Of a stretch of 64,000 nucleotides of DNA, positions 270 to 22,183 are shown piece by piece. The notes beneath the pieces are model-generated. The model did no database searches. It was not told where the DNA came from and saw only the letters and a program-made list of their open reading frames with translations. A program made the translations under genes and the position numbers. The stretch's first letter is position 1. Each line of letters begins with the position of its first letter. This DNA is from Burkholderiales bacterium. GTDB lineage: Bacteria > Pseudomonadota > Gammaproteobacteria > Burkholderiales > SG8-39. Location: positions 62,001-126,000 of the forward strand of contig JACZJT010000052.1 of assembly GCA_014860445.1 (NCBI GenBank). The letters run 5' to 3'.

Positions 270-1502
270 TCAAAAATTAAAACGAACCTGTAGATACACG
301 TTGTCGTCGTGCGAGAGTTGCCCGAACTGGCCCCAGGGCTTGCCGCCAAAGACGTTGGCGCCGATCGCTCCCCACACCTTGTCGGTGAAGCTGTAGCGCA
401 GCTCCGGGTTCACGAATCGGTCGCCGTTGCTGGCGTTGTACGAGGCATACGCGGAAAGCCGCAGGGTCTGATGCCGGAAGAACTGCGTCAGCCGCGCCGT
501 GACGGTATGGTTCCAGCGCTTTTCCACCGGGAAGCCTGCGGGCAGCGCCGCGAGATAGGCCCCATAGTCCTGCATGATTTCGGCGTAATACTGGAACGCG
601 AGGGAAAGGTCCTCGGCCGGTTGAATCTGGTAGCCTGCCAGCAGTCGGGTCTGGGAGTTGGGCACGGTAAAGTCGCTGCCCGACCGGTCCTGACGCGAGT
701 CATAGTAGGCGGCCTCCAGGCTCAGCACACCGTCGCCGGCCCGGCCGGAGACGCTGGCGCCATAGACCGAGAGCTGCGGGTAGAAATAGCTGATCTTGGT
801 CGGCGCCGTCATGCTGTCCGGCCGCATCGATGGCGTGCGCTGGAAGCCGCGATACAGGTAGAGCGCCGCGTCGTAGCCGGCGACATCGCGGTAAATGCGC
901 AGGCCGACATCGCCCTGGCCTGGCTTGATCGTCTCGCGATTCATGACCGCCGGCATCGGGTCGTAGAGATGAAAGCGGTTCGCATCCGGTATGCGGCTCT
1001 CTCGGAAACCCGGCGACAGCACCAGTTCGAAGTTGGCGAACTCGGGATAGGCGCCCAGCTTCACTGCATCCACGCCGCGCTTGAGATATTCCAACGGTCG
1101 CCCGGCGAAGAGCGCCTCGTGGTCCTTGGGAAAGACATCGTTGACGAATACCAGGTCGCCCAGTCCCCAGGTGATGACCTGCCGGCCGATCCGCATATCC
1201 CAATTGCCGGCGGTGTAATCGACGTAGCCCTCGCGCAGTTCGGATTGGTCCTGACGGCCGAGGTGATCATAGGAAAAGTCGCCCTTGGCCAGCAGCCGCC
1301 ACGCGCCGCCGCTAGCGTCTAGCTTGAGCTGGGCGCGCTCTTCCAACCACTTGTAATGGCGCCCGTCCGGGTTCGCCGCTACGGTGTTTGCGGCCGTGTT
1401 CTGCTGCAGGAAACCCGAAAGCGCGACCTCTGCGCGCGCCGCCGGGGGCGCCAGCAGAAGGACGAAGCAAAGTGCAGCGAGGCGTGACATCATTCGACCC
1501 AC
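270..1502 (-). CDS. outer-membrane beta-barrel-like protein associated with an MMPL exporter
   Basis: 410 aa ORF, signal peptide, alternating aromatic/beta pattern, C-terminal YLQVRFNF ending in F. Confidence 0.7.
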   Translation of the reverse strand: MGRMMSRLAALCFVLLLAPPAARAEVALSGFLQQNTAANTVAANPDGRHYKWLEERAQLKLDASGGAWRLLAKGDFSYDHLGRQDQSELREGYVDYTAGNWDMRIGRQVITWGLGDLVFVNDVFPKDHEALFAGRPLEYLKRGVDAVKLGAYPEFANFELVLSPGFRESRIPDANRFHLYDPMPAVMNRETIKPGQGDVGLRIYRDVAGYDAALYLYRGFQRTPSMRPDSMTAPTKISYFYPQLSVYGASVSGRAGDGVLSLEAAYYDSRQDRSGSDFTVPNSQTRLLAGYQIQPAEDLSLAFQYYAEIMQDYGAYLAALPAGFPVEKRWNHTVTARLTQFFRHQTLRLSAYASYNASNGDRFVNPELRYSFTDKVWGAIGANVFGGKPWGQFGQLSHDDNVYLQVRFNF

Positions 1503-2278
1503 TTGCGCAACGGTTGCCGCAGGAATCTCTCCGAAAACAGGCTGTCCTCAATACCGAGGTTGTAGCCGGTGTTGAGGTAAGCGACCTCGGTGCGGTGGCC
1601 CGTCTGCAAGTTCTTCATGCTGCGCTTCACCACCGTGGGAATGCCCTGAACGTCCGCCACCTCGTCGGCCGTGAATACCTTGTAGGGGGCTCCCTTCTTG
1701 TCGAACTGCTCCTCCTTCAGCGGCAGGAAAGTCGACGTGTCCACCCAGGTCAGCTTGTAGCCAAAATCGGCGTCGGTGCCTTTGGGCGTGCTCTTCACCA
1801 CGTAGCAGTCGCGATTACCGACTTTTCCCTCGCGCTCAATCACGTGGTTGTCGTCCTCGAGGTCGCGGCCGGAGACATCCTCATAGGTAAAGTCCGAGCC
1901 GACGAAGCTGGAGCGCTTGTCCTGCGCGGCGATGCGCTTGACCATGTTGATGGCCGGGATGAACAGCCAGCGATCGTCGTCCTTGGCCGGGTACTTGTAG
2001 GTCATGAAGCTCATGTCCTTCACATCCGCCGGCCTAAAGAAGTACATGAAATATTTCTGCTCGCCGCCCGCCTCCCCCATGTTCTTGCGCAGCATGGTGA
2101 GTTCGCGCACCCGCTCCTGGCCGCCCTTGTTGATGAGTTTCATCACCACCCGCGCCTTGAAATCCGTGCCCGGATAGAGGAAAGCCGCCTGGGATTTCTT
2201 CATCACTTCCTCGCCTGTGAGGGCAAAGGCCTGCAGCGGCAGCAGGCCGGCAATTATCCATATCCACCAGCGTTTCAT
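1490..2278 (-). CDS. outer membrane lipoprotein-sorting (LolA-like) protein
   Basis: MKRWWIWIIAGLLPLQAFA signal peptide; family-like DDRWLFIPAINMVKRI and SSFVGSDFTYEDVSGRDLEDD segments; sits between the MMPL and OMP genes. Confidence 0.8.
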   Translation of the reverse strand: MKRWWIWIIAGLLPLQAFALTGEEVMKKSQAAFLYPGTDFKARVVMKLINKGGQERVRELTMLRKNMGEAGGEQKYFMYFFRPADVKDMSFMTYKYPAKDDDRWLFIPAINMVKRIAAQDKRSSFVGSDFTYEDVSGRDLEDDNHVIEREGKVGNRDCYVVKSTPKGTDADFGYKLTWVDTSTFLPLKEEQFDKKGAPYKVFTADEVADVQGIPTVVKRSMKNLQTGHRTEVAYLNTGYNLGIEDSLFSERFLRQPLRKWVE

Positions 2279-2279
2279 T

Positions 2280-4628
2280 TCAATCTCCTTTCGAATGTGC
2301 GGCAACCGCTATGGCCGCCGGCTTGGGTTCGTCGAGCAGCCAGTTGCGCCCGAGCATGACCAGCGCGGGCAGATAAAGGACGGTGAGCAGCGCCGAGAGC
2401 AGCATCATCGCCACAATGAACGCTCCCACCGCAATGTAGGGCGTGAGCGGCGCGAACAGCATCACCGAAAAGGCCGCCGCAAACAGCAGCGCATTGCGCA
2501 GTATCCCCTTGCCCGGTCGCGATGCCGTCCACAGCAGCGCCTCGCGCACCGCTGCCTCGCTCCTGCCGCCATTCGACTCGGCCAAGCGCTGGCGGAAGCG
2601 GCTGACGAAATGGATGGCAAAATCGACGGCCATGCCCAGCGACAGCGTGCTTAGCACCGACAGCGGCATGTCGAAATCCTTGCCGGTGAAACCGACTACA
2701 CCATAGATGAGCAGGATGGTGAACAGCAACGGCACGTAGCCGATCAGGGCCCATTTTGCCGAGCGGAACGCGAGGGCAAGGATGGCAAACACCACCACCA
2801 GCGCCAGCGACAAGCCCAGCACCATATCGCCCAGCACCTCGTCGTTCCATACCAGATTGAAATAGGCAATGCCGGCCGGTTTCACCGTCACCGCCAATGG
2901 ATGGGCCTGCTGATAGGTCTGCGCCGCGTGGATCACCTGGCGCATGGCTTCCGCATCCCAGGTCTTGAGCTGCACCCACAGGTTGGCCTTCTGGAAGCCG
3001 GAATCGATCACGTTGTCCAGATCCGATGGCTTGGCCGACATGCTGAACAGGAAAAGATATTGACCGACCGTGTCCTGCGTTTCCGGAATGGTGTCGAATT
3101 TCGGGTCGTCGTCGTGCAGCACGCGGTTGATGCGCTTCACATAGTCGGCTACCGAAAAGGTCTTGCCCACCACGGGCATGCCTTCCAGGTCGCGCTGCAA
3201 TCCTTCCAGCCAACGCATGGCCTCCGGCCGTTTCATGAACTCGGGTTCCTTGGACTGCACCACCAGATAGCCCAGGGAAGTGCCACCCAGCGCCTGGTTC
3301 ATCGCCGTATCGGCCACGCGGATCTCGCTCGATTGCTTGAACCAGGCGACGAGGTTATTGTTGATGTGGATTTTCGTCGTGCCGACGATGGCCACGGCCA
3401 TCATGACGACACCCAGCAGCGCGACGGCCAGCGGGCGATCGGTGCCGATCCTGCCGATACCACGCAGCAAACGCGCGCTGCGGTCCAGTTCGACGCTTTC
3501 GTTAGCGGCGGCCTGGGCGATCTTATCCTCCTTGACGAAGGTGAGAATCGCCGGGATCAGGCTGAAGGAGAACAGCCGCAACACCACCGTGCCGAAGGCG
3601 ATCAGCCCGCCAAACACTTTCACCGGCACGATGTTCATGAACAGCAGCACGGCGAAGCCGGCGGCAGTGGCGAGCGCGGTGTAGCGCACCGGCCGGCTCA
3701 CCGCCTGCATGGTCTCTCGAATCGCCGCCAGTTTGTCGTGCTTCTCGCGGTAGCGGAAATAGAACTCGTTGAAGATGTGGATGCTGTCGGTGGCAATGGC
3801 CATGAGGAACACCGGCGCCATCGAACTCATGATATGCACCGGAAAGCCGGCTCCGATCAACAGGCCCATGCTCCAGATGATGGCAGCCATGGCCACCGCC
3901 ATCATGGCGATGGACAGCGCGAGGTTGCGAAACATGAGTTGGATGGCGATGAACATGATCATGCCCGCGATCGGCGAGAAGATGCCCATCAGCTTGAACA
4001 TCTCGGCGCCAAAGGTATCGCGCGCCACGGGGTCGCCGGCAATGTAGTAGCGCTCCGGGCCGTTCTCCGCGGCCACGATGGCGTGGATCTTGTTGGCGAT
4101 CTCGGCGCCGTTGGCGCCCTTTTCCAGCGGCACGTAGATGGCCGTGGTCTTGCCGTCTTTCGAGATTACGCGATCGACCAGGAGCGGGTTACCGAACAGG
4201 GCGCCGCGCAAGGCCTCGACCTCGGCATCCGTCTTGGGCGCGCCCGGCATCAGCGGTCCGACCTTGAGCGTGCCGGCTTCGGCCGTGACGTTGGTGATGG
4301 TGGTGAAGCCGTTCACGTCGCGGCTGGCCACGCCTGGAAGCGCAAGGATTTTGTCGGTAATGTGGGCGATGCGGCCCAGGGTTTCCCGATTGAGCACCCC
4401 CGCGTCGTTTTCCACGCCGACGACGATGGTGTCTTCGTAGAGCCCGAAAGTCTTGTCCACCTCGTCATTCCAGACACGCACGTCGGACGTATCCGGTAGC
4501 ATGTGCTTGGGATTGGTGTCCGTGCGGATTTTCGGAAACTGGGTGAGGAATAGCAGCGTGAGTGCCACCGTCGCCCAGACAACCAGTTTCGGACGGCGGA
4601 TGGAGAATTCGACCAATGAGAATTTCAT
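2280..4628 (-). CDS. MMPL/RND family transporter
   Basis: About 780 aa from MKFSLVEFSIRRPKLVVW; two repeated multi-TM halves (SMAPVFLMAIATDSIHIFNEF, LSLGMAVDFAIHFVSRFRQ). Confidence 0.9.
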   Translation of the reverse strand: MKFSLVEFSIRRPKLVVWATVALTLLFLTQFPKIRTDTNPKHMLPDTSDVRVWNDEVDKTFGLYEDTIVVGVENDAGVLNRETLGRIAHITDKILALPGVASRDVNGFTTITNVTAEAGTLKVGPLMPGAPKTDAEVEALRGALFGNPLLVDRVISKDGKTTAIYVPLEKGANGAEIANKIHAIVAAENGPERYYIAGDPVARDTFGAEMFKLMGIFSPIAGMIMFIAIQLMFRNLALSIAMMAVAMAAIIWSMGLLIGAGFPVHIMSSMAPVFLMAIATDSIHIFNEFYFRYREKHDKLAAIRETMQAVSRPVRYTALATAAGFAVLLFMNIVPVKVFGGLIAFGTVVLRLFSFSLIPAILTFVKEDKIAQAAANESVELDRSARLLRGIGRIGTDRPLAVALLGVVMMAVAIVGTTKIHINNNLVAWFKQSSEIRVADTAMNQALGGTSLGYLVVQSKEPEFMKRPEAMRWLEGLQRDLEGMPVVGKTFSVADYVKRINRVLHDDDPKFDTIPETQDTVGQYLFLFSMSAKPSDLDNVIDSGFQKANLWVQLKTWDAEAMRQVIHAAQTYQQAHPLAVTVKPAGIAYFNLVWNDEVLGDMVLGLSLALVVVFAILALAFRSAKWALIGYVPLLFTILLIYGVVGFTGKDFDMPLSVLSTLSLGMAVDFAIHFVSRFRQRLAESNGGRSEAAVREALLWTASRPGKGILRNALLFAAAFSVMLFAPLTPYIAVGAFIVAMMLLSALLTVLYLPALVMLGRNWLLDEPKPAAIAVAAHSKGD

Positions 4629-4659
4629 AGTGATGTGCTCCCTTAAATCGATAATCCGT

Positions 4660-5316
4660 TCAGTGAAGTCCGGGCGCGACATCGGCCGCTACCGCAACAA
4701 AGGCGCCGCAGCAGGGCGCCATTCGTTCCAGATGCGGCTCGGCCCAGCGCGCGACACGGCCTCCGCCCGGGAGCATGATGGCGGTGCGCAGCGTGAGGTT
4801 GCGCGCCGGCTGTCCTGCAAACAGGCGCTCGACTTCACGCCGTGTATGCCAGTGCGCGCCCCAATAAGCGCCACGGCCGCCATCGCGCCCTTTGGTGAAC
4901 CAGAGCAGGCTGTGCCGGTTGAGTAGTCCGAGCGCGACGCGGCGGCGGGCAACCCGCAGCATCTCCATCAGGGCGCGACGCGCTTCGCGCATGAAGCAGA
5001 GGGCAGTCACGCTGGTCACCAGATCGAAACTGCGGTTGGTAAAGGGGAGGCTCTGCCCGTCCGCGGCAACATAGATCGCCTTGCCGCGACCGGCGGCGAA
5101 GCGCGCCGAGGCAAAATCGACATCAGCCCCCACGGTCCAGTCGACGGCCGCGCTATCGGAAAAGCGACGCGTAAAATAGCCGGTGCCGCAGCCCACATCC
5201 AGCACGGTTTCTCCGAAACGCGGTGTCAGAAGCTCGTCGAGCAAGCGATATTCGATGCCTCCGATCCATGCGCCGCGCGGTGTCGTGTACCATTCTTCAT
5301 ACTGTTCCGGCTGCAT
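4660..5316 (-). CDS. class I SAM-dependent methyltransferase
   Basis: SAM motif VLDVGCGTGYFTRRF, followed by VTSVTALCFM. Confidence 0.85.
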   Translation of the reverse strand: MQPEQYEEWYTTPRGAWIGGIEYRLLDELLTPRFGETVLDVGCGTGYFTRRFSDSAAVDWTVGADVDFASARFAAGRGKAIYVAADGQSLPFTNRSFDLVTSVTALCFMREARRALMEMLRVARRRVALGLLNRHSLLWFTKGRDGGRGAYWGAHWHTRREVERLFAGQPARNLTLRTAIMLPGGGRVARWAEPHLERMAPCCGAFVAVAADVAPGLH

Positions 5317-5384
5317 GGATCCTCTCTGATTTTCGCTTTTGTCTAACCGCTATTTGAAATGTGACACGCGCATCGAAGCGCTCC

Positions 5385-6611
5385 TCACTGCCCCTGCTGC
5401 AGGACAATGCGGCTTCGAAACACCTCGTATGCAATCGGCTCAGTGTTCTCGTAGCCGATGCGCGCGCGCCGCGCCTCGTCCAGCAGGTGGTATCGAACCA
5501 CGGCCTCGACCGCCGCCGGCTTGCCTGCGGCCGGGACGTCGATGCGATAGCTGCGCGGCTGGTTGCGCGGCAGGCGCGTGTCCCACAGGTCGATGATGAA
5601 GGGGCGCCACATGGTGGTGCGTTTCAGCGAGTGATTTTCTTCGGCTAGCGTTTGCCCATTGCGGTCGAGCACGCGCAGGTGCACGGTCAGATGGCGGTCC
5701 GGCGTCCCGGTAGGCAGAAAATGGGCCGCGCCTACATTGGTCAAGCTCAGTGCGTAGGCGCGCCGGTCCGCCCCGATCTCGGCGAAGCGGATATCCAGTG
5801 CTTGTTTCACCGTCGCCGGGTCGTGCCCGCCGCGCCACAGGTGGCGGCGCGCCTTCCGCACTGGGCCGCCATCGACCAGCGCACGCTCGACCGCCGGCAT
5901 GTGGCACTGCACGCAGCCGAGCTCGCTCGCGTCGCCCACCGCCAACTCGCCGCTGCGACCTTTCCACTGGCCCCCGCCGGCCGCAATCTCGGCCGCGGTG
6001 CCGCAGGGCGGATAGCGGAAAAAGGTATCCCAGCGCTCGCCCTGGACCACGTGACAGCGCAGGCAGATCTCGTTCGCATCCGCGAGTTTCTCCACCGGAT
6101 GGGATGCATCGACGTCGCCAATGGGGCCGAGCATCTTTCCATCTTTGTAGTGGCACGCTGCGCAGGTCACGCCTTCGTGCTGCAGCTTGGCATCGAAATC
6201 GGGGTTGTCGGCGAGGATGGGTTTCAATTTCTCCGCGTCGCTGAAGCCGAGCACCTTGTATTCCTGTTGCCGGTCGAGGGGAATGTGGCAGTTCTTGCAA
6301 ATCTGCTGCAACTCGTCGAACTTCCAGTCGACCTGGAAGTAGGGATCGGTCCAGGCCTGGCTATGGATGCTCGTTTTCCATTCGGCATAGATCTCGCGGT
6401 GGCAGGCGCCACAGGTGCTGGCCCGCAGCGCGTCCGTCGACATGGACGATTTGCTGGTGTCCATCGGGCGCTCGAAGTTCTCTGTCACGACGAAGATGTT
6501 CATCGGACGCACCAGGCGCCAGCCGAGGAAGACCGCGAAGATAGCGATACCGATACCGACAATGATGGCCCGCTTTCGGGTCATGGCCATGTCGAGCCCC
6601 CTCGGCAGCAC
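5385..6611 (-). CDS. membrane-anchored multiheme c-type cytochrome (5 CxxCH)
   Basis: CGACH, CKNCH, CAACH, CLRCH, CVQCH motifs; N-terminal TM segment RAIIVGIGIAIFAVFLGW; likely start at an internal Met near 6584-6590. Confidence 0.88.
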   Translation of the reverse strand: MLPRGLDMAMTRKRAIIVGIGIAIFAVFLGWRLVRPMNIFVVTENFERPMDTSKSSMSTDALRASTCGACHREIYAEWKTSIHSQAWTDPYFQVDWKFDELQQICKNCHIPLDRQQEYKVLGFSDAEKLKPILADNPDFDAKLQHEGVTCAACHYKDGKMLGPIGDVDASHPVEKLADANEICLRCHVVQGERWDTFFRYPPCGTAAEIAAGGGQWKGRSGELAVGDASELGCVQCHMPAVERALVDGGPVRKARRHLWRGGHDPATVKQALDIRFAEIGADRRAYALSLTNVGAAHFLPTGTPDRHLTVHLRVLDRNGQTLAEENHSLKRTTMWRPFIIDLWDTRLPRNQPRSYRIDVPAAGKPAAVEAVVRYHLLDEARRARIGYENTEPIAYEVFRSRIVLQQGQ

Positions 6612-6656
6612 GCGCTGGCGGAAAACCTGTGGTTCATATGCGCCACGGCCTTTGCC

Positions 6657-7007
6657 TCAGAATACGATCACTTTGTCGGCCCACTGCGTCCAGGACGTCA
6701 GTTCGGCGAGAGTCCCTCTGTAGGTTCCCTCCAAGAGCTCGGGATCGGTGATCCCGCGCGCATCCATGCAGGTTCCGCACACACCCACTTCGGCCTTGTT
6801 GCGCACAATGCGACCGAGCATGAGCTGAATGTTGTAGTAACCCTCGGGCACCTTTTGTCCGCCTTTGGCGCAGGACGCCGCGTCGCCTATCAGAAACAGC
6901 TTCACTTCCTCGTCCTCCGCCTTCGACAGGGATCCCGCGAGGCGCAAGCCGTTATAGCTGCGCTCGCTGCCGTAGGGAGCATCGTTCAGGATGAATAGGG
7001 TTTTCAT
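6657..7007 (-). CDS. DsrE-family protein
   Basis: MKTLFILNDAPYGSERSYNGLRLAGSL...LFLIGDAASCAKGGQ...GVCGTCMDARGI. Confidence 0.85.
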   Translation of the reverse strand: MKTLFILNDAPYGSERSYNGLRLAGSLSKAEDEEVKLFLIGDAASCAKGGQKVPEGYYNIQLMLGRIVRNKAEVGVCGTCMDARGITDPELLEGTYRGTLAELTSWTQWADKVIVF

Positions 7008-7027
7008 GGTGTCGTTTTCCTATTGCG

Positions 7028-8014
7028 TTATGGTCCGGATTCATGTGCGATCGCGTATCCTTCCTTGTTCCACTGTTCCATGCCGCCGCGGAGGATACAG
7101 ACGTTGGTAAAGCCGGCCTGTTTGAGCTGGCTGGCGGCGGTCAGCGAGCGCTTGTGGGTTCTACAGACCAGCGTCAGCGGCTGCTGCTTCGACTGTTCGA
7201 GTTCCGCCAGTCGCGCAGGTAGTTCGGCGAGCGGAATGTTGCGCGCGCCTGGGATGTGGCCGAGCGGGCCTGTAAAATCGCCCGCGTCGCGGAGGTCGAT
7301 CAGCAGTGGTTTGTCGCTTTGTTCGAGCCTGCCTTTGAGACTGACGCCGTCGATCCAACGGATGCCGGCCTGGCGATACTGTCGTACCAGCCGGGGCAGG
7401 AAAGCGACGAACGCCAGCAGCGCTAGCGCCAACAATGCGTTACGGATTGCGCCAGCCTCTCCGGCAAGCGCTTCGCGCCCCGCGTGACCGAGCCACGAAT
7501 AGGCGAGCGCGCCGGGAAACATGCATACGAAGGAGGCAGCCGCGTAGGCGAGCAGCGGGATACGCGTCAGGCCGAGCGCGTAATTCACCAGGTTGAAGGG
7601 GAACAAGGGCACCAGTCGCACGAAAGCGACAAAGCGCCAGCCTTCGGCCTCCACGCCTTCGATCAGTTGCTTAAGCCTGCCGCCGGCGCGGCGCGCGACC
7701 CAGTCGGCGGCGAGATAGCGCGCGACAAGGAAGGCGAGCGTTGCGCCCAGCGTGGCGCCGGTCAGGCTGTACAGCGCTCCGGGGATGGCGCCGAACAGCG
7801 CGCCTGCCGCTAGCGTGAGCACCGATCCGGGAAGGAACAACACGGTCGCCGCCGCATAGAGGGCGATAAAGGCCAACGGTGCCCAGACGCCAACCTCGGC
7901 CAGCCAACTCGAAAGTGCGTCCGCGCTCAGCGCCTCGCGGTTGGCGAAACCGAAGGCCAGACCCGCGGCCAGCGCCAAAGCGAGCCCGGCGCGAGCTACG
8001 TTACCTGGCTTCAT
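7028..8014 (-). CDS. TVP38/TMEM64 (DedA-like) membrane protein fused to a C-terminal rhodanese domain
   Basis: LPGSVLTLAAGALFG and FPFNLVNYALGLTRI membrane part; C-terminal LLIDLRDAGDF...GHIPGARNIPL...LVCRTHKRS rhodanese. Confidence 0.88.
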   Translation of the reverse strand: MKPGNVARAGLALALAAGLAFGFANREALSADALSSWLAEVGVWAPLAFIALYAAATVLFLPGSVLTLAAGALFGAIPGALYSLTGATLGATLAFLVARYLAADWVARRAGGRLKQLIEGVEAEGWRFVAFVRLVPLFPFNLVNYALGLTRIPLLAYAAASFVCMFPGALAYSWLGHAGREALAGEAGAIRNALLALALLAFVAFLPRLVRQYRQAGIRWIDGVSLKGRLEQSDKPLLIDLRDAGDFTGPLGHIPGARNIPLAELPARLAELEQSKQQPLTLVCRTHKRSLTAASQLKQAGFTNVCILRGGMEQWNKEGYAIAHESGP

Positions 8015-8870
8015 GATCCGAATCCGATTCGCTCCCGATTGCATAGCCGCCGCCCGCGTTCACGAACGGAAGCGCAAGCAACCCGGTGAGTTTGACCGCC
8101 TGTTCGCTGCCGGTCAGCCCCTTCACGCCGATTGCCATGCTCTCCTGCGGCAGGCGCGCGCTCTCGCGATAGGTGCCGCACAGCCGGTCCCACCAGGGGA
8201 GGTTGAAACCGAAGTTACTGTTCGTCTCGGCTACCTCCATGGAATGATGAATGCGATGCATCTCGGGTGTCACCAGTATCCAGCGCAGCAAGCGATCGAC
8301 CGGCGCGCGCAGCCGCAGATTGGCGTGGTTGAACATCGCCGTGGCGTTCAACAGCACCTCGAACACCAATACCGCGGCGGCCGGCGCCCCGAGCACCGCT
8401 ATTGCCGCGAACTTAATCAGCATCGACAGCAAGATTTCGATCGAATGAAAGCGCGCGCCGGTGGTCACGTCGATGTCCGCGTCGGCGTGATGTACTCGGT
8501 GCAGGCGCCAGAGCACCGGCACGGCGTGAAACATGACGTGCTGCAAATAGATGACGAAATCGAGCGCAAGCACCGACAGTGCGAACGCCCACCAGAACGG
8601 GATCTCAAAAGCGTTCAGCAATCCCCAGCCGTGCTCGGCCGCGCGCAGCGCGAATCCAACCGCCGCAATCGGAAACAGCAGGCGCAGAATCAGACTGTTC
8701 AACACTACCAGCGCCAGGTTGTGCAGCCAGCGAACGCGCCGCGGCAGCAACCGTACCCGTCTGGGCGCCAGGGCCTCCCACGCCGCCATCAGCGCGAACA
8801 CGCCGAAGAAGGCGCTTAGGCGAACGGTCGGTTCGTGGGCCAACGCCCATTCGTTAAATGTCATGCTCAT
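8001..8870 (-). CDS. sterol desaturase / fatty acid hydroxylase superfamily protein
   Basis: Histidine boxes HVMFH, HRVHH and HRIHHS in a multi-TM protein. Confidence 0.88.
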   Translation of the reverse strand: MSMTFNEWALAHEPTVRLSAFFGVFALMAAWEALAPRRVRLLPRRVRWLHNLALVVLNSLILRLLFPIAAVGFALRAAEHGWGLLNAFEIPFWWAFALSVLALDFVIYLQHVMFHAVPVLWRLHRVHHADADIDVTTGARFHSIEILLSMLIKFAAIAVLGAPAAAVLVFEVLLNATAMFNHANLRLRAPVDRLLRWILVTPEMHRIHHSMEVAETNSNFGFNLPWWDRLCGTYRESARLPQESMAIGVKGLTGSEQAVKLTGLLALPFVNAGGGYAIGSESDSDHEAR

Positions 8871-8910
8871 TCCTCGTACGCTTGGAGCTTGCGTAAACCC
8901 ACGGGTCAGG

Positions 8911-8945
8911 TATAATACAACTATTCAACCAAGTACTAGAATAGT
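8911..8945 (+). promoter_or_regulatory. candidate promoter and ArsR-type operator for 8960 (and possibly the divergent operon)
   Basis: TTGCGT 8889-8894, 16-bp spacer, TATAAT 8911-8916; perfect inverted repeat ACTATTC (8920-8926) N12 GAATAGT (8939-8945) immediately downstream. Confidence 0.6.
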
Positions 8946-8959
8946 AGGGAGCTACGGCA

Positions 8960-9622
8960 ATGATGTCAACAGATAATTTCAAGCAGGACGTACATGCCCA
9001 GCTCGCGCGGGTAGGGAAAGCCCTGTCAAGCGGCAACCGGCTGGAGTTATTGGACTTCGTCGCGCAGGGGCCGCGCAGCGTGGAGGAACTGGCGACCATG
9101 ACGCGGCTCTCGGTCGCAAACGCGTCGAAGCATCTGCAGGAACTGCGCCGCGCAGGGCTGGTACGGGCACGAAAGGAAGGCCTGAGGGTGTACTACGAAG
9201 TGGCGGGGCCGGATGTGGTGGACTTGATCGCCGCGCTGGGACTGGTCGCCGAGACGCGGCTCGCCGAAATGGCACACTTGGTGCGCACCTACATCAGCGC
9301 GCGTGACGAGCTGGAACCGATCGCTGCCGCCGAATTGCTAAAACGTTCGAAGCAGGGGCTGGTGACCGTGCTCGACGTACGCCCGGCCATAGAGTACGCC
9401 GCCGGGCATTTGCCGGGCGCGATCAACGTTCCGGTCGAAGACCTGACTAAACACCTTAGAAATTTCCCCAAAGGACGCGAAGTCATCGCCTATTGCCGCG
9501 GCCCATACTGCCTGCTCTCGGTGGATGCGGTGGCATTGCTGCGCGCCAAAGGCTACAAAGCGCGCCGGATGGAGGACGGTTTCCCGGAGTGGAAAGCGTC
9601 CGGACTACCGGTCGAGGCCTGA
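8960..9622 (+). CDS. ArsR-family HTH regulator fused to a rhodanese domain
   Basis: wHTH EELATMTRLSVANASKHLQELRRAGLVRARKEGLRVYYE; rhodanese VLDVRPAIEYAAGHLPGAINVP...AYCRGPYCLLS. Confidence 0.92.
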   Translation: MMSTDNFKQDVHAQLARVGKALSSGNRLELLDFVAQGPRSVEELATMTRLSVANASKHLQELRRAGLVRARKEGLRVYYEVAGPDVVDLIAALGLVAETRLAEMAHLVRTYISARDELEPIAAAELLKRSKQGLVTVLDVRPAIEYAAGHLPGAINVPVEDLTKHLRNFPKGREVIAYCRGPYCLLSVDAVALLRAKGYKARRMEDGFPEWKASGLPVEA

Positions 9623-9670
9623 GCAGGTCCCGCGAAGGCCGTGACCCGTGGCTAGCCTCAATGTCGATCC

Positions 9671-9701
9671 ATCCCTTTCGGGGATTCCGCCCTCAAGCGG
9701 A
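9671..9701 (+). other. tandem abutting hairpins in the leader between the ArsR-rhodanese gene and the downstream gene
   Basis: ATCCC-TTTCG-GGGAT (9671-9685) directly followed by TCCGC-CCTCAA-GCGGA (9686-9701). Confidence 0.4.
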
Positions 9702-9841
9702 TCGGAGACGATAGCCATGGTGATCAAGGGACTGAGAGTTGCGCTTTTGCTAAGCCTAGCCACGACTATCGGCTGGTTGCTGCTTACAGCCGGTGTTGGC
9801 GAAACCCCGCGTGCAGGCGTCCCGTTTGCGAACGCCAGCCT

Positions 9842-12217
9842 GTGCATCCACCGGCCCGGCTTATGACGGCGACAGCATCCGCGATGACCCTGCCGAGAGC
9901 GCCCCGCAACGCGGGCTCGTCCTACCAGAACTCCATGCCCAGCCACTATTCGAAAGGTGCGCGGGTCCTATCCATGCTGGCCTTCAGCTATGTCGCTTTC
10001 GCCTTCATCAACGAGCGCTTCCTGCATTTATTTGCGCGCGCAGACGGCACAGCCCCGTTGTGGCTGAGTCACTGGACCGAGTACGCCGTTATCCTGGCGT
10101 TCGGGGTGTGGCGCACTCTGGCCGAAAAGAATCCCTATACCCGCAAGCGGCTCGGTTTTCTGATCAGTGCAGTTGCCGTGTTCTGGTGGATCATTCCGGA
10201 CTATTTGCGTTTGCCAGAACCCTACATCGGTGCGTTGCCGGGACAGCCGATATTTCCGCAGTTACACGCCCCCGGCACCTTGACGTTTTTCACAATCCTG
10301 CTGCTAGTGCTGTTGTTCGGTCGTCGCGTGGTGTGCGGCTGGAATTGCCCCTGTGTCGGCATCCGCGAAACCGTTGGTTTCGCTTTCCGCGAAAAGACTC
10401 TGCGCAGCAGCACGGCGTGGAACTGGCGCTACACCAAATGGTTTTTCTTCGCGCTCTATATGATCGCCTTCGTGCTGATCATGTTCTCGGGCACGGCCTA
10501 CGTGTCGCCGTTCTATAGCGGATTCCTGGCACTGGTCGGCGTCACCTATTTCGGCTCCTTCTTTATCGCGCCCCTGACCGGCAACCGCTTTTACTGCCGT
10601 TATCTGTGCCCTTACGGGGCCACTTTCGGGCTACTCAACCACATCGGCTACTACGGCATCCGCATGGACAAGGATGCCTGCGTCGATTGCCGGCGTTGCG
10701 AACAGGTCTGCGATATGGGCATTCCGGTCTGGCAGCAAGGCAAAGATCACGGGCGCGTCACCGGGCTGGAGGATTGCATGGGGTGCGGGCGCTGCGTGGT
10801 GTCCTGCCCCACCGACGCGCTGGAGTTCCGCGACGTGCGTAACGAATTTCTGCCGAAACTGCGCATGGACGGCTCCTATCTGTTGAAACGCGCAAGCCCG
10901 TCAGAAATCGCACCCCGAATTGAGCCGTCAAAGCGCGCAGCCTCAGTCCGGCGCGAAGACTGGCAAGAAGATTGCCAGTCGCTGAGCTTGATTGACGCCA
11001 TGGCCCAGGCTCAGCGCTGCCTCGATTGCGGCGTGCCCGGCTGCCAAAATGCCTGCCCGCTTCACAACCGCATTCCGGAATGGCTGCAGGCCTTGGGCAA
11101 AGGCGACGTTGAGGCTGCAGCGGCCATCAGCCACAGCACCAGCAACCTGCCGGAAATTTGCGGCACGGTATGCCCCAGCCATCGCCTGTGCGAAGGCGCG
11201 TGCACGCTCAATGCCAGGAATGGAGCCGTTATCATTGGCGCATTGGAACGCTTTGTTACCGAAGAGGCCTTCCGCAAAGGGTGGACGCCACAAGGCAGGA
11301 AAGGGCCCGCCAACGGCAAGACGGTCTCCATCATTGGCGCCGGTCCGGCTGGTTTGGCCTGTGCGGACGAACTCAACAAGTCAGGCTTCGATGTGACCGT
11401 TTACGATAAACGGGACGAGATTGGTGGCCTGCTGACCTACGGCGTTCCATCCTTCAAGTTGGACAAGGCGGCCATCGTGCGCCGCAGGAGATTATTTGAA
11501 GAGGCGGGCATTAACTTTGTGCTCGGCGTCGATGTCGATTCACAACGGTTACAGCGGCTGATCGACACCAACGACGCCGTGTTCCTGGGATCCGGGGCCC
11601 AGCGGCCGCGTGTCACGAACCTTTCTGGGCAAGAGCTTGAAGGCCTCAGCGACGGACTTGAGCACCTCTCCATACTCAATACCAGCCGACTCTGCGCATC
11701 CCAGGCTGCCCCGGATATGATGGGTAAGCGTGTCCTGGTTCTCGGGGGCGGCGACACCGCGATCGACTGCGCCCGTAGCGCCGTGCGCCAGGGCTCGGCC
11801 GACGTTACCATCGCTTACCGCCGCGGCCCGGAGCAAATGCGCGCGTTCCCGAAAGAGATTGCCTACGCCCGGGAAGAAGGCGTGAACTTCGCTTTTCACC
11901 AAACGCCCGAAGCGCTCGTCGGCGAGGAGAAACTACGAGGTATTCGCTTCAACAACAGCGCCGACGGGCATGGAAACGTCCACGCCTGCGACGTTGCCAT
12001 CGTAGCATTTGGCCAGGACGCTGATGACAACGGCTGGCTCAAACACCTGAACATCGCTACCGACGATCGCGGTTTTTTCGTCGTGGATGAAAACGGCGGG
12101 ACAACTCACCCCAAGGTTTTCGTAGGCGGAGACAATAGCCACGGACCAGACCTCGTTGTTACCGCCGTTGCAGCAGGGCGACGTGCCAGCCAAGGTATCC
12201 TGGCTTCGTTGCAATGA
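9842..12217 (+). CDS. NapH/CcoG-like membrane polyferredoxin fused to a GltD-like NAD(P)H-dependent flavoprotein
   Basis: CGWNCPC, CRYLCPYG, CVDCRRCEQVC and CMGCGRCVVSCP; then CLDCGVPGCQNACP, GAGPAGLACADEL, GGGDTAIDCARSA; one uninterrupted 791-aa ORF, start possibly 9864. Confidence 0.9.
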   Translation: MHPPARLMTATASAMTLPRAPRNAGSSYQNSMPSHYSKGARVLSMLAFSYVAFAFINERFLHLFARADGTAPLWLSHWTEYAVILAFGVWRTLAEKNPYTRKRLGFLISAVAVFWWIIPDYLRLPEPYIGALPGQPIFPQLHAPGTLTFFTILLLVLLFGRRVVCGWNCPCVGIRETVGFAFREKTLRSSTAWNWRYTKWFFFALYMIAFVLIMFSGTAYVSPFYSGFLALVGVTYFGSFFIAPLTGNRFYCRYLCPYGATFGLLNHIGYYGIRMDKDACVDCRRCEQVCDMGIPVWQQGKDHGRVTGLEDCMGCGRCVVSCPTDALEFRDVRNEFLPKLRMDGSYLLKRASPSEIAPRIEPSKRAASVRREDWQEDCQSLSLIDAMAQAQRCLDCGVPGCQNACPLHNRIPEWLQALGKGDVEAAAAISHSTSNLPEICGTVCPSHRLCEGACTLNARNGAVIIGALERFVTEEAFRKGWTPQGRKGPANGKTVSIIGAGPAGLACADELNKSGFDVTVYDKRDEIGGLLTYGVPSFKLDKAAIVRRRRLFEEAGINFVLGVDVDSQRLQRLIDTNDAVFLGSGAQRPRVTNLSGQELEGLSDGLEHLSILNTSRLCASQAAPDMMGKRVLVLGGGDTAIDCARSAVRQGSADVTIAYRRGPEQMRAFPKEIAYAREEGVNFAFHQTPEALVGEEKLRGIRFNNSADGHGNVHACDVAIVAFGQDADDNGWLKHLNIATDDRGFFVVDENGGTTHPKVFVGGDNSHGPDLVVTAVAAGRRASQGILASLQ

Positions 12218-12287
12218 GCGGCGTGAAATGTGGGGCAAGCGTGCTATCGCATGATGCGCAACTAGCGCGCCAGCTGACGCGTACGAC

Positions 12288-12932
12288 ATGAACTTTTACC
12301 AGAAATGGATATTGCCACGGCTGGTGGACGTCGCGATGCGAAACAGCGTGGCGACGCGCTACCGTTCGCTTATCGTGCCGAAAGCATGCGGTACGGTACT
12401 TGAAGTTGGCGTTGGCTCAGGCCTCAACCTGCCTTTCTACGGCATTGGCGTCGAGCATCTCTATGGACTCGATCCCTCCGAAGAATTGTTGGCGATGGCC
12501 CGGAAGAAAGCGCGTGCTCTCGCTTTCCCAATCGATTTCATGGCGCATACAAGCGAAGAGATCCCGCTGGACGACAGTTCGGTTGACACCGTTGTAATGA
12601 CATGGACCCTGTGCTCCATTGCGGACCCTGTAAAAGCATTGAAGGAACTCAGGAGAGTGATCAAGCCCGGCGGAACGCTGCTGTTTGTCGAACACGGTCT
12701 TGCCCCAGAAATTCGCATACAGGACTGGCAACAGCGGCTTAATCCTTTATGGAGCAGGCTGACCGGGGGATGCAATCTGAACCGAAAAATGGATCAACTC
12801 ATCCGCACCGCGGGCTTTGATTTTGCGGAACTGAAGACAGAGTACGCAGAGGGCGCTCGCCCCTTGAACTATATGTATTCCGGGCAGGCTCAGCCCGAGT
12901 TTGGTCAGCGAATTGGCGAACGCTCACCCTAG
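12288..12932 (+). CDS. class I SAM-dependent methyltransferase
   Basis: VLEVGVGSGLNLPFY motif; near-identical N-terminus to the partial gene at 1..266. Confidence 0.9.
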   Translation: MNFYQKWILPRLVDVAMRNSVATRYRSLIVPKACGTVLEVGVGSGLNLPFYGIGVEHLYGLDPSEELLAMARKKARALAFPIDFMAHTSEEIPLDDSSVDTVVMTWTLCSIADPVKALKELRRVIKPGGTLLFVEHGLAPEIRIQDWQQRLNPLWSRLTGGCNLNRKMDQLIRTAGFDFAELKTEYAEGARPLNYMYSGQAQPEFGQRIGERSP

Positions 12933-13386
12933 GTGCCGCGTTTTCCGTAATCGCGTTTTGGACTTCGGTTGCCAACAAAGATTGGCAATTGAATGGGAAT
13001 CTTCAGCAAAGCGGACGCACAACGATCTGCGCTGATTGGCACTTTGTGAAATCGCAAAGTTTGTTCAAGCCGACAAGCCTAAGCTCAGATCAAACTGGTT
13101 AGCGGCAGGTCCACCTCGGTTAGCCGACCTTCGTGACATCAAACCCTAGCCGGCTCCTTCGGTCGGGAGCCGTCGTCTGACTGCTTCGCCGCAAAAGTCC
13201 GCTCCGGTCGACGAGCCGAAGTCCACGGCCAACTGGCGAGCGGCGGCTTGACACGCAGACAGCGGTCTTTCATGACGCCGAAGGTCGGGCGGCCGCAGTG
13301 GGTCTTATTGAGTCCCGTATAAATAACTGTCAACGTGATGAAGCCCAGGAACGTTAATATGCTTGTGTTTATTTCGAGGTGCGACG

Positions 13387-13899
13387 ATGAAGCACAAGCG
13401 AGATTTCAAAGCATTGGAGAAACGCCGCCTCAAATGCGCGAGGCTCTTGGCGCGTGGTACGCCGAAGTCGGAGGTGGCTCGGCAGTTGGGCGTGACGCGA
13501 CAAACGGTAGCGGCTTGGGAACAGCGTCTTGCCGAGGGGGGCAAGGAGTCGCTCAAACGAGGCGCATTGGGGCGGCCCCGCCAGCTGGATTCCGAGCAGG
13601 AGCGCGAGCTGGGCAAAGTTCTCATGGCCGGTGCGTTGGCGGCCGGATATCCGACCGAACTCTGGACGTTGCCCCGCATCGGCAAATTGATCACTGGACG
13701 GTTTGGGATCGAATACAGTATCGGCCATCTGTGGCATCTACTTCGCCGCCTGGGCTTTTCTTGCCAGAAGCCGGAGAAGCGTGCCATCCAGCGCAACGAG
13801 TCGGAGATCGTTGGCTGGAAGCGGCGCGGTTGGCCTGCGCTCAAAAAAAAGCCCAGCGAGAAGGCCGCACCATCCTCTTCATCGACGAATCTGGGCTGA
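13387..13899 (+). CDS. IS630 transposase ORFA (HTH part); joins ORFB by -1 frameshift at 13845-13851
   Basis: HTH SEVARQLGVTRQTVAAWEQRL; A_AAA_AAG slippery heptamer in the correct frame. Confidence 0.88.
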   Translation: MKHKRDFKALEKRRLKCARLLARGTPKSEVARQLGVTRQTVAAWEQRLAEGGKESLKRGALGRPRQLDSEQERELGKVLMAGALAAGYPTELWTLPRIGKLITGRFGIEYSIGHLWHLLRRLGFSCQKPEKRAIQRNESEIVGWKRRGWPALKKKPSEKAAPSSSSTNLG

Positions 13900-14384
13900 G
13901 CGAGCGACCCAGCGTCGCTCGCACCTGGAGTTTGCGCGGCCAGACGCCGATTCTTCAGCACAGCTTCACCTGGAAACAACTGTCGGCCATTGCCGGTCTG
14001 TCCTTCTGGCAGTTCTACTTCCGCTTCTTTCCTGGGGCTATTCGCTCCGAGCAGATCATCGAATTTCTCGGCGCACTCAAGCGCCAGATCAAGAAACCGC
14101 TGTTGATCATCTGGGATGGGGCAGCAATCCATCGCAGCCGTAAGGTAACCACGTGGCTCGAAGAGCAGGACGGACACTTCGCTGTCGCGCGGTTGCCGGC
14201 ATACGCTCCCGAACTCAACCCAGTTGAAGCGATCTGGGGTTACCTCAAGAAACATGAGATCGCCAACTTGTGTCTGAACACCATTGGCGAAGTCGGCCAG
14301 TTTGCCCGTAACAGACTCAAATCCATGCAGCGGCGACCTTCGTTGATCACCGGTTTCTGGAAACAGGCTGAACTGGCTTTTTGA
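13851..14384 (+). CDS. IS630 transposase ORFB (DDE catalytic part), expressed through -1 frameshift
   Basis: ILFIDESGLSERP, LLIIWDGAAIHRS, LPAYAPELNPVEAIWGYLKKH; in frame with the longer ORF 13335..14384. Confidence 0.88.
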   Translation, partial: AQREGRTILFIDESGLSERPSVARTWSLRGQTPILQHSFTWKQLSAIAGLSFWQFYFRFFPGAIRSEQIIEFLGALKRQIKKPLLIIWDGAAIHRSRKVTTWLEEQDGHFAVARLPAYAPELNPVEAIWGYLKKHEIANLCLNTIGEVGQFARNRLKSMQRRPSLITGFWKQAELAF

Positions 14385-14435
14385 TGTCATGTATTTATAC
14401 GAGACTCAATAGGACTAAACTCAAACTGAGACACA

Positions 14436-15011
14436 TCACTCCACAATCCCGGCCGCCTTCAGCCGTCCCTCAATGTCATACCGGGCGCGTTGTTCCTGCG
14501 CCTTCAGGTAGCCGATAACCCTGCTGGCATGCGCGCTCGCAGTATCTCGGTCAACGCCGGCAGCCGCGGCAGCGTCGAGCAGGCTGCAATGCACGCCGAA
14601 ATAGCGCCGAACGAGGACATGCCGTAGCTGGAAATTGACCGAGCGGCCGGCAAGCGCCTCGGTGCGCACCAGCTCACTGATCTCGGCGATGGCCAGCAGC
14701 CATTCCGCATTGGGTCGAAGGCCCGAGCAACACGCATGTCGACAATCGCAGGGCACCGCTCGGACAGCGAACCGAGCAACGAGTATCTGGCCGCGTATCC
14801 TGGGATCCAGGGCATCGATCTCGGCGCGGATCATGCCTGAGGTACCGGCGCCGTCCAGCCCCCCCAAACCGCGTCCTGTGGGCTTGGGGCCGCCCATCAT
14901 GGTTGCCATTGCGCTCGATTTGTACTGGCCATGCATGAAGTTGAACGCAAAGGAAAGCGCGCCGCCAACTGAGCGGAATAGGGCCGACTCAAACTGCGTC
15001 TCGATCTGCAT
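14436..15011 (-). CDS. phage-type hypothetical protein (possible late regulator-like)
   Basis: ORF from MQIETQFESALF; Cys-rich CDCRHACCSG; position at the end of the leftward phage operon. Confidence 0.55.
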   Translation of the reverse strand: MQIETQFESALFRSVGGALSFAFNFMHGQYKSSAMATMMGGPKPTGRGLGGLDGAGTSGMIRAEIDALDPRIRGQILVARFAVRAVPCDCRHACCSGLRPNAEWLLAIAEISELVRTEALAGRSVNFQLRHVLVRRYFGVHCSLLDAAAAAGVDRDTASAHASRVIGYLKAQEQRARYDIEGRLKAAGIVE

Positions 15012-15213
15012 GGCCTTCCGTCTCCAAGTAGAGTTTGCATTTTCTTCCCCAGACACGCCCCTTGAAGCAGTCCTCTATCACCTCATCGGATCGCTCAATG
15101 ACTCGGCGTCGCAGCCGAATCACCCAACCGCAGCCCTGGCAGGAAGCGGCTCCCACGCGCTCGGCCACATCAGCCGGATCTCGCCACATCCACGCCGGCA
15201 GGTTCGCGCTCAT
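14989..15213 (-). CDS. small hypothetical phage protein with CxxC motif
   Basis: 74 aa, CQGCGW; overlaps its neighbour in an operon arrangement. Confidence 0.55.
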   Translation of the reverse strand: MSANLPAWMWRDPADVAERVGAASCQGCGWVIRLRRRVIERSDEVIEDCFKGRVWGRKCKLYLETEGHADRDAV

Positions 15214-15225
15214 TTCGCCTTGCCC

Positions 15226-15447
15226 TCACGCGCCTTCTTGCGATTCGGCTTTGCGCCCATCCTCCTCCTCGTCGTCGTCGATTACCGGTGCAAATAGCAT
15301 CAGCTTTCGCACCTTGCGCGCCGTCCCTTCGTCCGGGATCGCAAGCGACCCGAGATAGGCCCACTTCGGAAATAGGCTCATGTCGGCCTTGAATTCGCGC
15401 ACCTGCGGCTGATCGGCCTTAACCCGGTGCACCTGGATCGGCGTCAC
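15226..15447 (-). CDS. hypothetical phage protein (GTG start)
   Basis: VTPIQVHRVKADQPQVREFKADMSLFPKWAYLGSL...; fits the operon spacing. Confidence 0.45.
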   Translation of the reverse strand: MTPIQVHRVKADQPQVREFKADMSLFPKWAYLGSLAIPDEGTARKVRKLMLFAPVIDDDEEEDGRKAESQEGA

Positions 15448-15451
15448 TCTC

Positions 15452-15775
15452 TTACACGTCGCCGATTTCATCGAACGCCAGGTTGAGCTGCTCGGCTTTG
15501 CGCGATTCTTCCTCCCATTTGTCGGCCGCTTTTGCGTTGACGATTTTGCGCACAACCGCTGCGAGCATGCCGCATTCTTCGGCTTTGGCCTTGACCCAAT
15601 CGCCGTATTTTTCTCCGGCTTCGTCAGCCACAATTTTCAGCCTGACCCCGTCGTCCAAAGTTAGCTTGAGCGGGTTCGTTTTGAATACTGCCTGTTGTCC
15701 GTTGGCGTCCTTGCGCCCCCTTGCTTTGCTGATTGCTCCAGCGGTGTCCGTTGCTGCGTCCATGATGTTCTCCAC
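15452..15775 (-). CDS. hypothetical phage protein
   Basis: 107-aa ORF in operon context; start possibly 15763. Confidence 0.5.
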   Translation of the reverse strand: MENIMDAATDTAGAISKARGRKDANGQQAVFKTNPLKLTLDDGVRLKIVADEAGEKYGDWVKAKAEECGMLAAVVRKIVNAKAADKWEEESRKAEQLNLAFDEIGDV

Positions 15776-15787
15776 GGTGGTTGATGA

Positions 15788-16312
15788 TCAGAAAGGTGGT
15801 GCGTCGTCGTCTGCTTCTGCTGCTTCCAGCTGTGCCGGCAATGATTCGTCTATCAGCGATGCCTGTTGCGGCAGCATCGGCTCGATCTCAATTTCGGCGC
15901 GCGGGTTCACGCGATCGATGAAATGAAAAACGTGCTTCTCGCGGACCTGGCGATCGTTTTCATAGACGCCCTTGGACGCCAGCACACGCTCGCTTTCGCC
16001 ATAGGCATAGTTGCCTTCGCCGACCTTGATGAGCCTGCCCTTGAGCCGCTTGTATTTCGCCGCGAGAATGTCGAGCAGCAACGCCTCATCGAGATCGGGG
16101 CGATCGCTCGCATAGAAGAGTCGCGCGGTTACGCGAAGCGGGCCGGTCAGCATTTGACGTGCAGCCGGCGGGATCTGCAACGATGCTGCTTTTTCGTACT
16201 CGCGCGCCTTCTCCGATTTGATCAGCGCAGGCTTGCCGTTGGGAAACGTCACGAGCTCGCGCGAGTTTTTCATGCTCGCGACTTCGCCCAGGATCGTGAA
16301 TTCGATTTTCAC
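15788..16312 (-). CDS. RusA-family crossover junction endodeoxyribonuclease
   Basis: VKIEFTILGEVASMKNSRELVTFPNGKPALIKS...DRPDLDEALLLDILAAKY...GVYENDRQVREKHVFHF; GTG start with 4-nt overlap to the upstream gene. Confidence 0.8.
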   Translation of the reverse strand: MKIEFTILGEVASMKNSRELVTFPNGKPALIKSEKAREYEKAASLQIPPAARQMLTGPLRVTARLFYASDRPDLDEALLLDILAAKYKRLKGRLIKVGEGNYAYGESERVLASKGVYENDRQVREKHVFHFIDRVNPRAEIEIEPMLPQQASLIDESLPAQLEAAEADDDAPPF

Positions 16313-16530
16313 GCGTTGCGGTCCCTGGCGTGCTTGCGCTGCTCGTCGACTCGTTTTTTCATGATCCGGTCGAACACCGGATCGCGCGCGTTCGGATCGA
16401 AGCCAGGAATCCACTTCGCAGCGATGTGGTCGCAAACCTTCCACCAAGGGTGCTTGTTGCCATCGATGCGCAGGTGCACGGTCGGCGAACCTGGCCCGGC
16501 GGCGTAGACGATTGCGATCATGTTGTTCAT
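16309..16530 (-). CDS. hypothetical phage protein
   Basis: 73-aa ORF overlapping both neighbours by 4 nt. Confidence 0.6.
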   Translation of the reverse strand: MNNMIAIVYAAGPGSPTVHLRIDGNKHPWWKVCDHIAAKWIPGFDPNARDPVFDRIMKKRVDEQRKHARDRNA

Positions 16531-17441: not shown

Positions 17442-17442
17442 T

Positions 17443-18012
17443 TCAGTCCAGGCTTTCCAACAACGCAACAATGTCGGGCGGCGCCGGTTGCGGGTGCGGC
17501 AACAAGCGCGCGGCGTGCTCCCAGGCCAATCTGCCTTTGCGCACCGCCTCGAGCAGCACCGATTCCCGCCCGGCCGGATCATGGCCCAGGCTCGGTGTCC
17601 ATCTGACCGGCGTGCCCGCGTCGCGCGCGGCCTGGACCAGCTTGCGGTAGGTTTCGACGAAGGCCATGCGCGCCGCGATCGCGTCGCCCTCGGCGAGCAG
17701 CGGCGCCGCGATGCCCCAGGCTTGCGCCATTTCCTCGGTCCAGACCACCGACTGCACTTCGTTTTTCGGCGCGCTCGCCCACGCCTCCTCCGCACCTAGG
17801 CGTCCATCGTTCAGGCGCGAGATAACCGCTTCGATGGTCAATCCGCGGGGTCGCAATTCGCGTCGGCAGCGCGTGAGTGCACCTAGAACCTGGGGCTCTG
17901 AATAGCGCGCGAGATCCCGCGCCATGACGCGCGCCGCCGCGTCCGAAAGCTGCGTGCCGGTCAGCTCCGCCGTGACGGCGATGGCCTGCAGGAGCTGCTT
18001 GCTCGGACTCAT
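17443..18012 (-). CDS. hypothetical phage replication-region protein
   Basis: 189-aa ORF directly upstream of the DUF1376 gene. Confidence 0.65.
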   Translation of the reverse strand: MSPSKQLLQAIAVTAELTGTQLSDAAARVMARDLARYSEPQVLGALTRCRRELRPRGLTIEAVISRLNDGRLGAEEAWASAPKNEVQSVVWTEEMAQAWGIAAPLLAEGDAIAARMAFVETYRKLVQAARDAGTPVRWTPSLGHDPAGRESVLLEAVRKGRLAWEHAARLLPHPQPAPPDIVALLESLD

Positions 18013-18023
18013 GGCGCGTAGCC

Positions 18024-22179: not shown

Positions 22180-22183
22180 AGCC

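Follow-up and report, generated by a model that had tools for sequence, protein, structure and literature searches.

A divergent gene set around an ArsR-rhodanese regulator in a Burkholderiales bacterium: a proposed sulfane-sulfur-responsive module linked to multihaem electron transfer

An ArsR-type regulator fused to a rhodanese domain lies at the centre of about eleven divergent genes in the window, the 64-kb stretch of DNA analysed here (G000:C7:62001-126000 in the host genome). We propose that these genes form a divergent regulon controlled by sulfane sulfur under an ArsR-rhodanese repressor, in which sulfur carriers are coupled to a multihaem electron path linked to NAD(P)H. We regard this reading as evenly balanced between right and wrong. 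Its regulatory part is well supported by sequence; the substrate of the module and the direction of electron flow we infer. If the model is true, the regulator would be a reactive-sulfur sensor of a new type, its switch being a rhodanese dithiol instead of the ArsR domain. Relatives of the module are found throughout Gammaproteobacteria and seem to have neither a name nor a tested function; they point to an electron path by which NAD(P)H is tied to multihaem cytochromes, both in sulfur oxidisers and in other members of the class. A literature search, conducted mostly outside subscription papers, found no description of ArsR-rhodanese fusions, TVP38-rhodanese operons or rhodanese-octahaem clusters and no paper naming the module, in keeping with the preliminary description, which had recognised no named pathway. 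Such silence is weak evidence of novelty.

The eight genes of the preliminary description are all open reading frames at the coordinates listed in Table 1, and their domain calls hold. Their divergent arrangement is likewise borne out, the two directions having an intergenic region of 89 bp in common. Neighbouring leftward genes overlap or are separated by at most 68 bp. The leftward run continues past 4660 with overlaps down to 270. The leftward operon is thus longer than first reported, because the MMPL, LolA-like and barrel genes also overlap.

Table 1. Features of the module in the window. Positions count from the first nucleotide of the 64-kb stretch.
Feature	Position	Strand	Remarks
Candidate operator ATTCAACCAAGTACTAGAAT (ATTC-N12-GAAT)	8923..8942		Between the divergent genes; starts 38 bp before the ArsR-rhodanese start codon
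ArsR-rhodanese regulator, 220 aa	8960..9622	+	HTH_5 and Rhodanese; Cys179 and Cys184 invariant (CRGPYC, rhodanese loop)
NapH-like polyferredoxin (membrane) fused to GltD-type NAD(P)H/FAD domain, 791 aa	9842..12217	+	NapH-like/Fer4/Fer4_20/Pyr_redox_2
SAM methyltransferase MT2 (UbiE/PmtA-like)	12288..12932	+	Shared with the modules of L001, L002 and L041
Fatty-acid-hydroxylase / OlsE-like membrane di-iron protein	8001..8870	-	FA_hydroxylase; opens the leftward operon
TVP38/VTT membrane protein fused to rhodanese	7028..8044	-	VTT and Rhodanese; CRT-H/D-KRS, Cys294 invariant
DsrE-family sulfur carrier	6657..7007	-	CGTC
Pentahaem cytochrome c, membrane-anchored	5385..6611	-	CxxCH at 67, 105, 150, 183, 233
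SAM methyltransferase MT1	4660..5316	-	Recurrent module member
MMPL/HAE3-type RND exporter	2280..4682	-	Overlaps MT1; same co-directional run
LolA-like outer-membrane lipoprotein-sorting protein	1490..2305	-	Overlapping run
Outer-membrane beta-barrel-like protein	270..1502	-	Weak Wzi/DUF1302 matches; overlapping run

The regulator probably senses reactive sulfur through its rhodanese domain. Its ArsR half is an ArsR/SmtB winged-helix domain (HTH_5 1.3e-10; HTH_metalloreg 73.3 bits, cut-off 55) with structural matches to 2kko (E 5e-23), SqrR (6o8k, E 2.5e-8) and YgaV (3cuo, E 1e-5); the C-terminal half is similar to rhodaneses (3tp9). Among 61 aligned regulators, Cys179 is present in all and Cys184 in 60, the single exception being an ORF picked wrongly (L052); both residues lie in the rhodanese loop CRGPYC. 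With a catalytic cysteine in the active loop, this rhodanese is of the active type, as are the TVP38-rhodaneses, in which Cys294 is invariant (eight proteins). The ArsR half has zero cysteines in the window protein and no conserved cysteine among the 61 aligned homologues. The regulator is therefore not of the SqrR/BigR type, to which it had been likened: the cysteine pair of the ArsR domain (Cys41/Cys107 in SqrR) is missing, and the BigR model scores 33.5 bits against a cut-off of 155. Because the only invariant cysteines sit in the rhodanese loop, the CRGPYC dithiol is the obvious candidate for the sulfur switch.

Characterised sulfane-sulfur ArsR regulators have two cysteines of the ArsR domain in common, and regulators without the usual pair are raised as an open point in PMC12423496. 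The window protein is a concrete candidate for such a regulator, for which an operator and two specific cysteines can be named. It resembles SqrR, BigR, YgaV, SoxR and sHdrR in its ArsR fold, in its neighbourhood of sulfur genes and in its ATTC...GAAT half-sites. Unlike them, it is a 220-aa protein with a rhodanese domain and without the ArsR cysteines that define the group (PMC12423496). The YgaV-YgaP pair of E. coli also joins an ArsR regulator to a rhodanese protein (PMC9774250), but as two proteins of one operon, whereas the window regulator carries the rhodanese within the same chain. In L195 and L196 (genomes G616 and G500, family f153) the regulator is a plain 92-aa ArsR protein, the TVP38 protein likewise lacks a rhodanese domain, and the operator has been lost. 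In L041 (G329:C14:4200-24100, 9656-15700) a partial second regulator copy (residues 89-213) precedes the fusion, and MT2, SQR-like and DsrE2-like genes are inserted between regulator and fusion.

A palindrome, ATTC-N12-GAAT, stands upstream of the regulator gene in most homologues and is its candidate operator. It was first spotted by eye in the divergent regions of 12 loci. Of 68 other loci, 20 have a perfect match (0.35 expected) and 44 match at 7 or more of the 8 positions (5.45 expected). Spacings from 2 to 20 other than N12 show little enrichment, save N4 and its neighbours, where overlapping half-sites are at least part of the cause. All 11 ArsR-rhodanese loci outside the window's taxonomic order match at 7 or 8 of the 8 positions, eight of them perfectly. 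The site at 8923-8942 is the top-scoring one in the window (21.7; next 11.0) and coincides in part with a promoter-like match on the minus strand. An operator search at the locus found no second operator before the fusion gene or MT2. Since the operator lies in the shared region, both directions are probably governed from this one site, and its place in the shared promoter region suggests that a single bound dimer could repress both. The YgaV/SqrR site is ATTC-N8-GAAT (PMC9774250); the half-sites are thus the same, and the spacing differs, N12 against N8. Ten places in the host genome match the operator with at most one mismatch, and only the window site is clearly beside relevant genes, so we discarded a wider regulon. 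An SQR-like gene near a match on host contig C12 was examined and is unconvincing as a regulon member.

The gene grouping is conserved and is linked to sulfur genes. Regulator homologues are common in 399 genomes of the taxonomic order, with about 90 full-length; many of the genomes compared are metagenome-assembled (MAGs) and some contigs are short. Around 60 regulators, genes for an MFS transporter (28 loci), an MBL protein of the ETHE1/persulfide-dioxygenase type (25), DsrE (21) and TauE (18) are the most frequent neighbours, followed by MT1 (14), the hydroxylase (11) and rhodanese (10). The neighbouring MBL protein matches 3tp9, 3r2u, 4ysb and ETHE1 (4chl). Elsewhere, the regulator family heads operons with persulfide-dioxygenase-like, TauE, DsrE and SQR-like genes, and plasmid copies in Thiothrix, Acidithiobacillus and Deinococcus likewise occur with MBL and MFS genes. 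The ArsR-rhodanese, fatty-acid hydroxylase and TVP38-rhodanese genes are found together in many families. Chance does not explain the grouping, because these genes are found side by side again in other families and orders. The neighbourhood analysis that had been suggested for the candidate module thus finds conserved co-occurrence around the regulator, and the proposed link to sulfur chemistry emerges as strong.

Linkage was assessed in 80 genomes, chosen as 40 regulator-positive and 40 regulator-negative. The hydroxylase occurs in 13/40 positive and 2/40 negative genomes (P = 0.003), adjoining the regulator in the positives; the same adjacency is seen in the alphaproteobacterium Fuscovulum. 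On a tree of 92 regulators, the hydroxylase trait needs at least five changes on starred branches. Several origins or exchanges of the link are thus likely. For the pentahaem cytochrome the sample difference is borderline (5/40 against 0/40, P = 0.055), and for the fusion within the taxonomic order it is not significant (P = 0.24).

Beyond the taxonomic order, the fusion has a strict partner. The full-length fusion is restricted within the order to the host (G000), its congener G329 and G167, and occurs in 16 further genomes of the class. An octahaem HAO-like cytochrome adjoins it in 16/16 of these class genomes and a pentahaem one in 13/16; the octahaem protein was found in 0/14 unselected class genomes used as controls. 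The typical order is ArsR-rhodanese | hydroxylase > TVP38-rhodanese > (TauE > DsrE >) fusion > (dihaem) > octahaem > pentahaem > MT1. G167, from the window's own order, has this form with the regulator turned round (L078). At E 1e-40 it also has an octahaem homologue, and G000 and G329 have none. The preliminary description needs correcting here: in most relatives, the electron-transfer partner of the fusion is the octahaem HAO-like protein, which this genome does not have. The two f153 genomes retain the electron-transfer genes although neither rhodanese domain is present. A search for related loci with the fusion returned only two MAG contigs, and a plasmid search returned only AegA/GltD relatives.

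The fusion matches 6s6s (E 9e-84) and 5jca (E 2e-69) over Fer4_20 plus the FAD/NAD(P) domain. We rejected the small subunit of glutamate synthase as its identity: it scores 454 bits against the TIGR01318 cut-off of 483, has no gltB alongside and carries an added NapH-like part. AegA is among its best NCBIfam relatives, under the cut-off. The fusion shares Fer4_20 and the FAD/NAD(P) domain with the GltD-type electron bifurcators and their relatives (NfnL, AegA, DsrL), but differs from them in its N-terminal NapH-like membrane part with CxxxCP motifs, which is in the same chain, and in its genetic tie to multihaem cytochromes. The octahaem protein is a member of the HAO/hydrazine dehydrogenase family (PDB matches 6t5e, E 9e-74, 4n4j and 6hif). 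It aligns along its whole length with kustc1061 and HDH; unlike these, it has no cross-link tyrosine (12/12 aligned proteins) and belongs to a cluster that is probably sulfur-regulated. Arsenosugar genes (ArsS radical SAM, ArsM, TIGR04283 glycosyltransferase) adjoin the class-wide form of the module in L189, L194, L195, L196, L201 and L203.

The window shows a variant of the typical order: between DsrE and MT1, the slot of the relatives' octahaem and pentahaem genes, it has a different pentahaem cytochrome. Fusion, this cytochrome and regulator share one locus only in the window and, rearranged, in the congener G329. Its haem motifs and a non-haem cysteine, Cys203, are invariant in six homologues; Cys203 may be a haem ligand, as cysteines are in SoxA and TsdA. 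The best match in both sequence and fold is Thermochromatium tepidum c552 (5ze8), also with five haems, although the similarity is low (E 1e-6) and the window protein differs in its membrane anchor and the invariant extra Cys203. We know of no firmly assigned role for c552. The pentahaem cytochrome aligns weakly with the octahaem protein (E 7e-6), which may partly be due to the haem motifs. In its AlphaFold model the haem part is unusable (pLDDT 46.6) and only the C-terminal sandwich is good. A plasmid search with this cytochrome found none. An orthologue sits beside merA/merT-like genes in L124 (G132:C22, 1582-7800), and a second copy in G217 (L125, 9045-10346) sits beside two IS630-type transposases.

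The remaining module proteins include a hydroxylase for which 'sterol desaturase' was a poorer label than di-iron fatty-acid-hydroxylase-type protein (OlsE-like). It belongs to the fatty acid hydroxylase superfamily (PF04116, 2.6e-29), and His111/115/124/127/128/142/182/205/208/209 are invariant in 11 homologues. It matches the ornithine lipid hydroxylase OlsE (E 1.6e-28), an assignment that we rejected at 99.9 bits against a cut-off of 475. A DsrEFH/TusBCD relay was likewise rejected for the window DsrE, which is a single protein (TusD model 20 bits, cut-off 89); the host's actual DsrEFH set is at G000:C1. The MMPL-LolA-barrel set adjoins the module in four places (the window, L041, L092 and L195/L196, the last at 24-34% identity), a recurrence that argues against accidental placement.

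The host is a dissimilatory sulfur oxidiser by its genes. It carries soxB, which exceeds its cut-off at 874 bits, and a dsr cluster in which DsrA (522 bits) and DsrE/F/H do so too, together with DsrC, DsrM-like and DsrK proteins and dsrL; dsrEFH and dsrL are typical of sulfur oxidisers. A sulfur-responsive module fits a host with soxB and dsr genes. The best match to an ETHE1-like persulfide dioxygenase in the host genome has E 1e-7, and no close one was found there. Two tandem GltD-type DsrL-like genes lie in the dsr cluster (L177, G000:C1:57000-76900, at 5251-7209 and 7290-9233).

In the model that we prefer, a rise of sulfane sulfur inside the cell (persulfide, polysulfide or thiosulfate-derived) would lead to persulfidation of Cys179. 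Cys184 would then close a di- or polysulfide bridge, the ArsR dimer would leave the operator and both operons would be expressed. The membrane-bound TVP38-rhodanese and DsrE would hand on sulfane sulfur. Electrons would pass between NAD(P)H in the cytoplasm and multihaem c cytochromes in the periplasm by way of the FAD/GltD domain, the chain of 4Fe-4S centres and the NapH-like part in the membrane, with a terminal cytochrome that is octahaem in most relatives and pentahaem in the window. The lack of the cross-link tyrosine in the octahaem protein favours a reductase, so that electrons would probably run outward from NAD(P)H; for the window's pentahaem cytochrome, this direction is suggested only by analogy. 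The likely roles of the hydroxylase, the methyltransferases and the MMPL-LolA-barrel set would be to adapt the lipids of the envelope or export them, or else to export some hydrophobic compound. These roles are guesses and the weakest part of the model. Several findings count against the model: the fusion gene has no operator of its own, the fusion, the pentahaem cytochrome and the regulator come together only in the window and in the rearranged G329 locus, the sample differences for the two redox genes are marginal or not significant, and the f153 genomes keep the electron-transfer genes without either rhodanese domain.

The substrate may be nitrite, hydroxylamine or NO instead of sulfur, since the best-studied HAO-like proteins act on nitrogen compounds. 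A nitrogen-oxide module, which we think unlikely, would use the multihaem cytochromes to reduce these compounds with NAD(P)H; its sulfur proteins would protect or repair thiols reacting with NO or HNO (nitrosation, S-N hybrid species), and its regulator would sense general thiol oxidation. The fusion's octahaem partner speaks for it, being nearest to HAO and hydrazine dehydrogenase and lacking the cross-link tyrosine like a described HAO that, by the title of Ferousi 2021 (cited in PMC12485887), reduces nitrite. However, the genes most often found with this regulator family are sulfur genes and not nitrogen genes, and no octahaem homologue was found in the window genome at the threshold above. 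Tentatively, and with somewhat better prospects, sulfur and nitrogen could meet in one undescribed, class-wide redox pathway, in which an NAD(P)H-fed GltD-polyferredoxin conduit across the membrane would drive a periplasmic octahaem reductase without the tyrosine (pentahaem in the window), with the rhodanese dithiol as switch.

In the window's order, it is the hydroxylase and not the redox genes that accompanies the regulator most constantly. Together with the sub-cut-off OlsE match and the four MMPL-LolA-barrel placements, this favours an envelope or lipid module induced by sulfane sulfur, in which hydroxylase, VTT, methyltransferases, MMPL, LolA-like and barrel proteins would modify and export lipids or a hydrophobic polysulfane and the electron-transfer genes would feed the di-iron hydroxylase. 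We consider it improbable: most relatives lack the MMPL-LolA-barrel set, and the class-wide fusion always adjoins a periplasmic multihaem cytochrome, which a membrane or cytosolic hydroxylase would not need. It is very improbable that the set is a loose sulfur gene island, gathered by transfer and sharing co-regulation as its only function. Members do vary among relatives (MT1 for DsrE, MT2 moved, fusion moved) and an IS630 element and a prophage-like element lie beside the window copy, yet gene order is kept in many families and the fusion-octahaem link is strict. Least probable of all is a metal or metalloid resistance island, with a metalloregulator for arsenic or mercury and with cytochrome and FAD proteins that reduce the metal(loid). 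RefSeq does annotate the regulator as a metalloregulator. Further points in favour are that several relatives have ArsM, ArsS and arsenosugar glycosyltransferase genes nearby, that the G132 cytochrome adjoins merA/merT-like genes and that two plasmid regulator copies lie near MerT or merA; the ArsR half, however, has no conserved cysteine for a metal, and ars and mer genes are inconstant where sulfur genes recur.

A close genome is a groundwater 'Burkholderiales bacterium' MAG (L001), with 91% identity in the fusion protein and 95% in the regulator. Fragments of DsrE, hydroxylase and ArsR-rhodanese genes, in the same order as in the window, look like a decayed module copy in L134 (G065:C27:84200-104100, about 9387-10060). 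On two roseobacter plasmids (L151, L152), hydroxylase homologues (57%) without an adjacent ArsR-rhodanese gene lie near VTT, rhodanese, CDF, DUF411 and multicopper oxidase genes. At its right border, the window locus meets an IS630-type transposase (13363) and then a prophage-like element (about 14.4-25.3 kb). This prophage-like or integrative element spans 14436-25336 and includes a serine recombinase at 23786-25336, the 3' end of which reaches into the tRNA-Glu/tRNA-Ala genes at 25296-25485.
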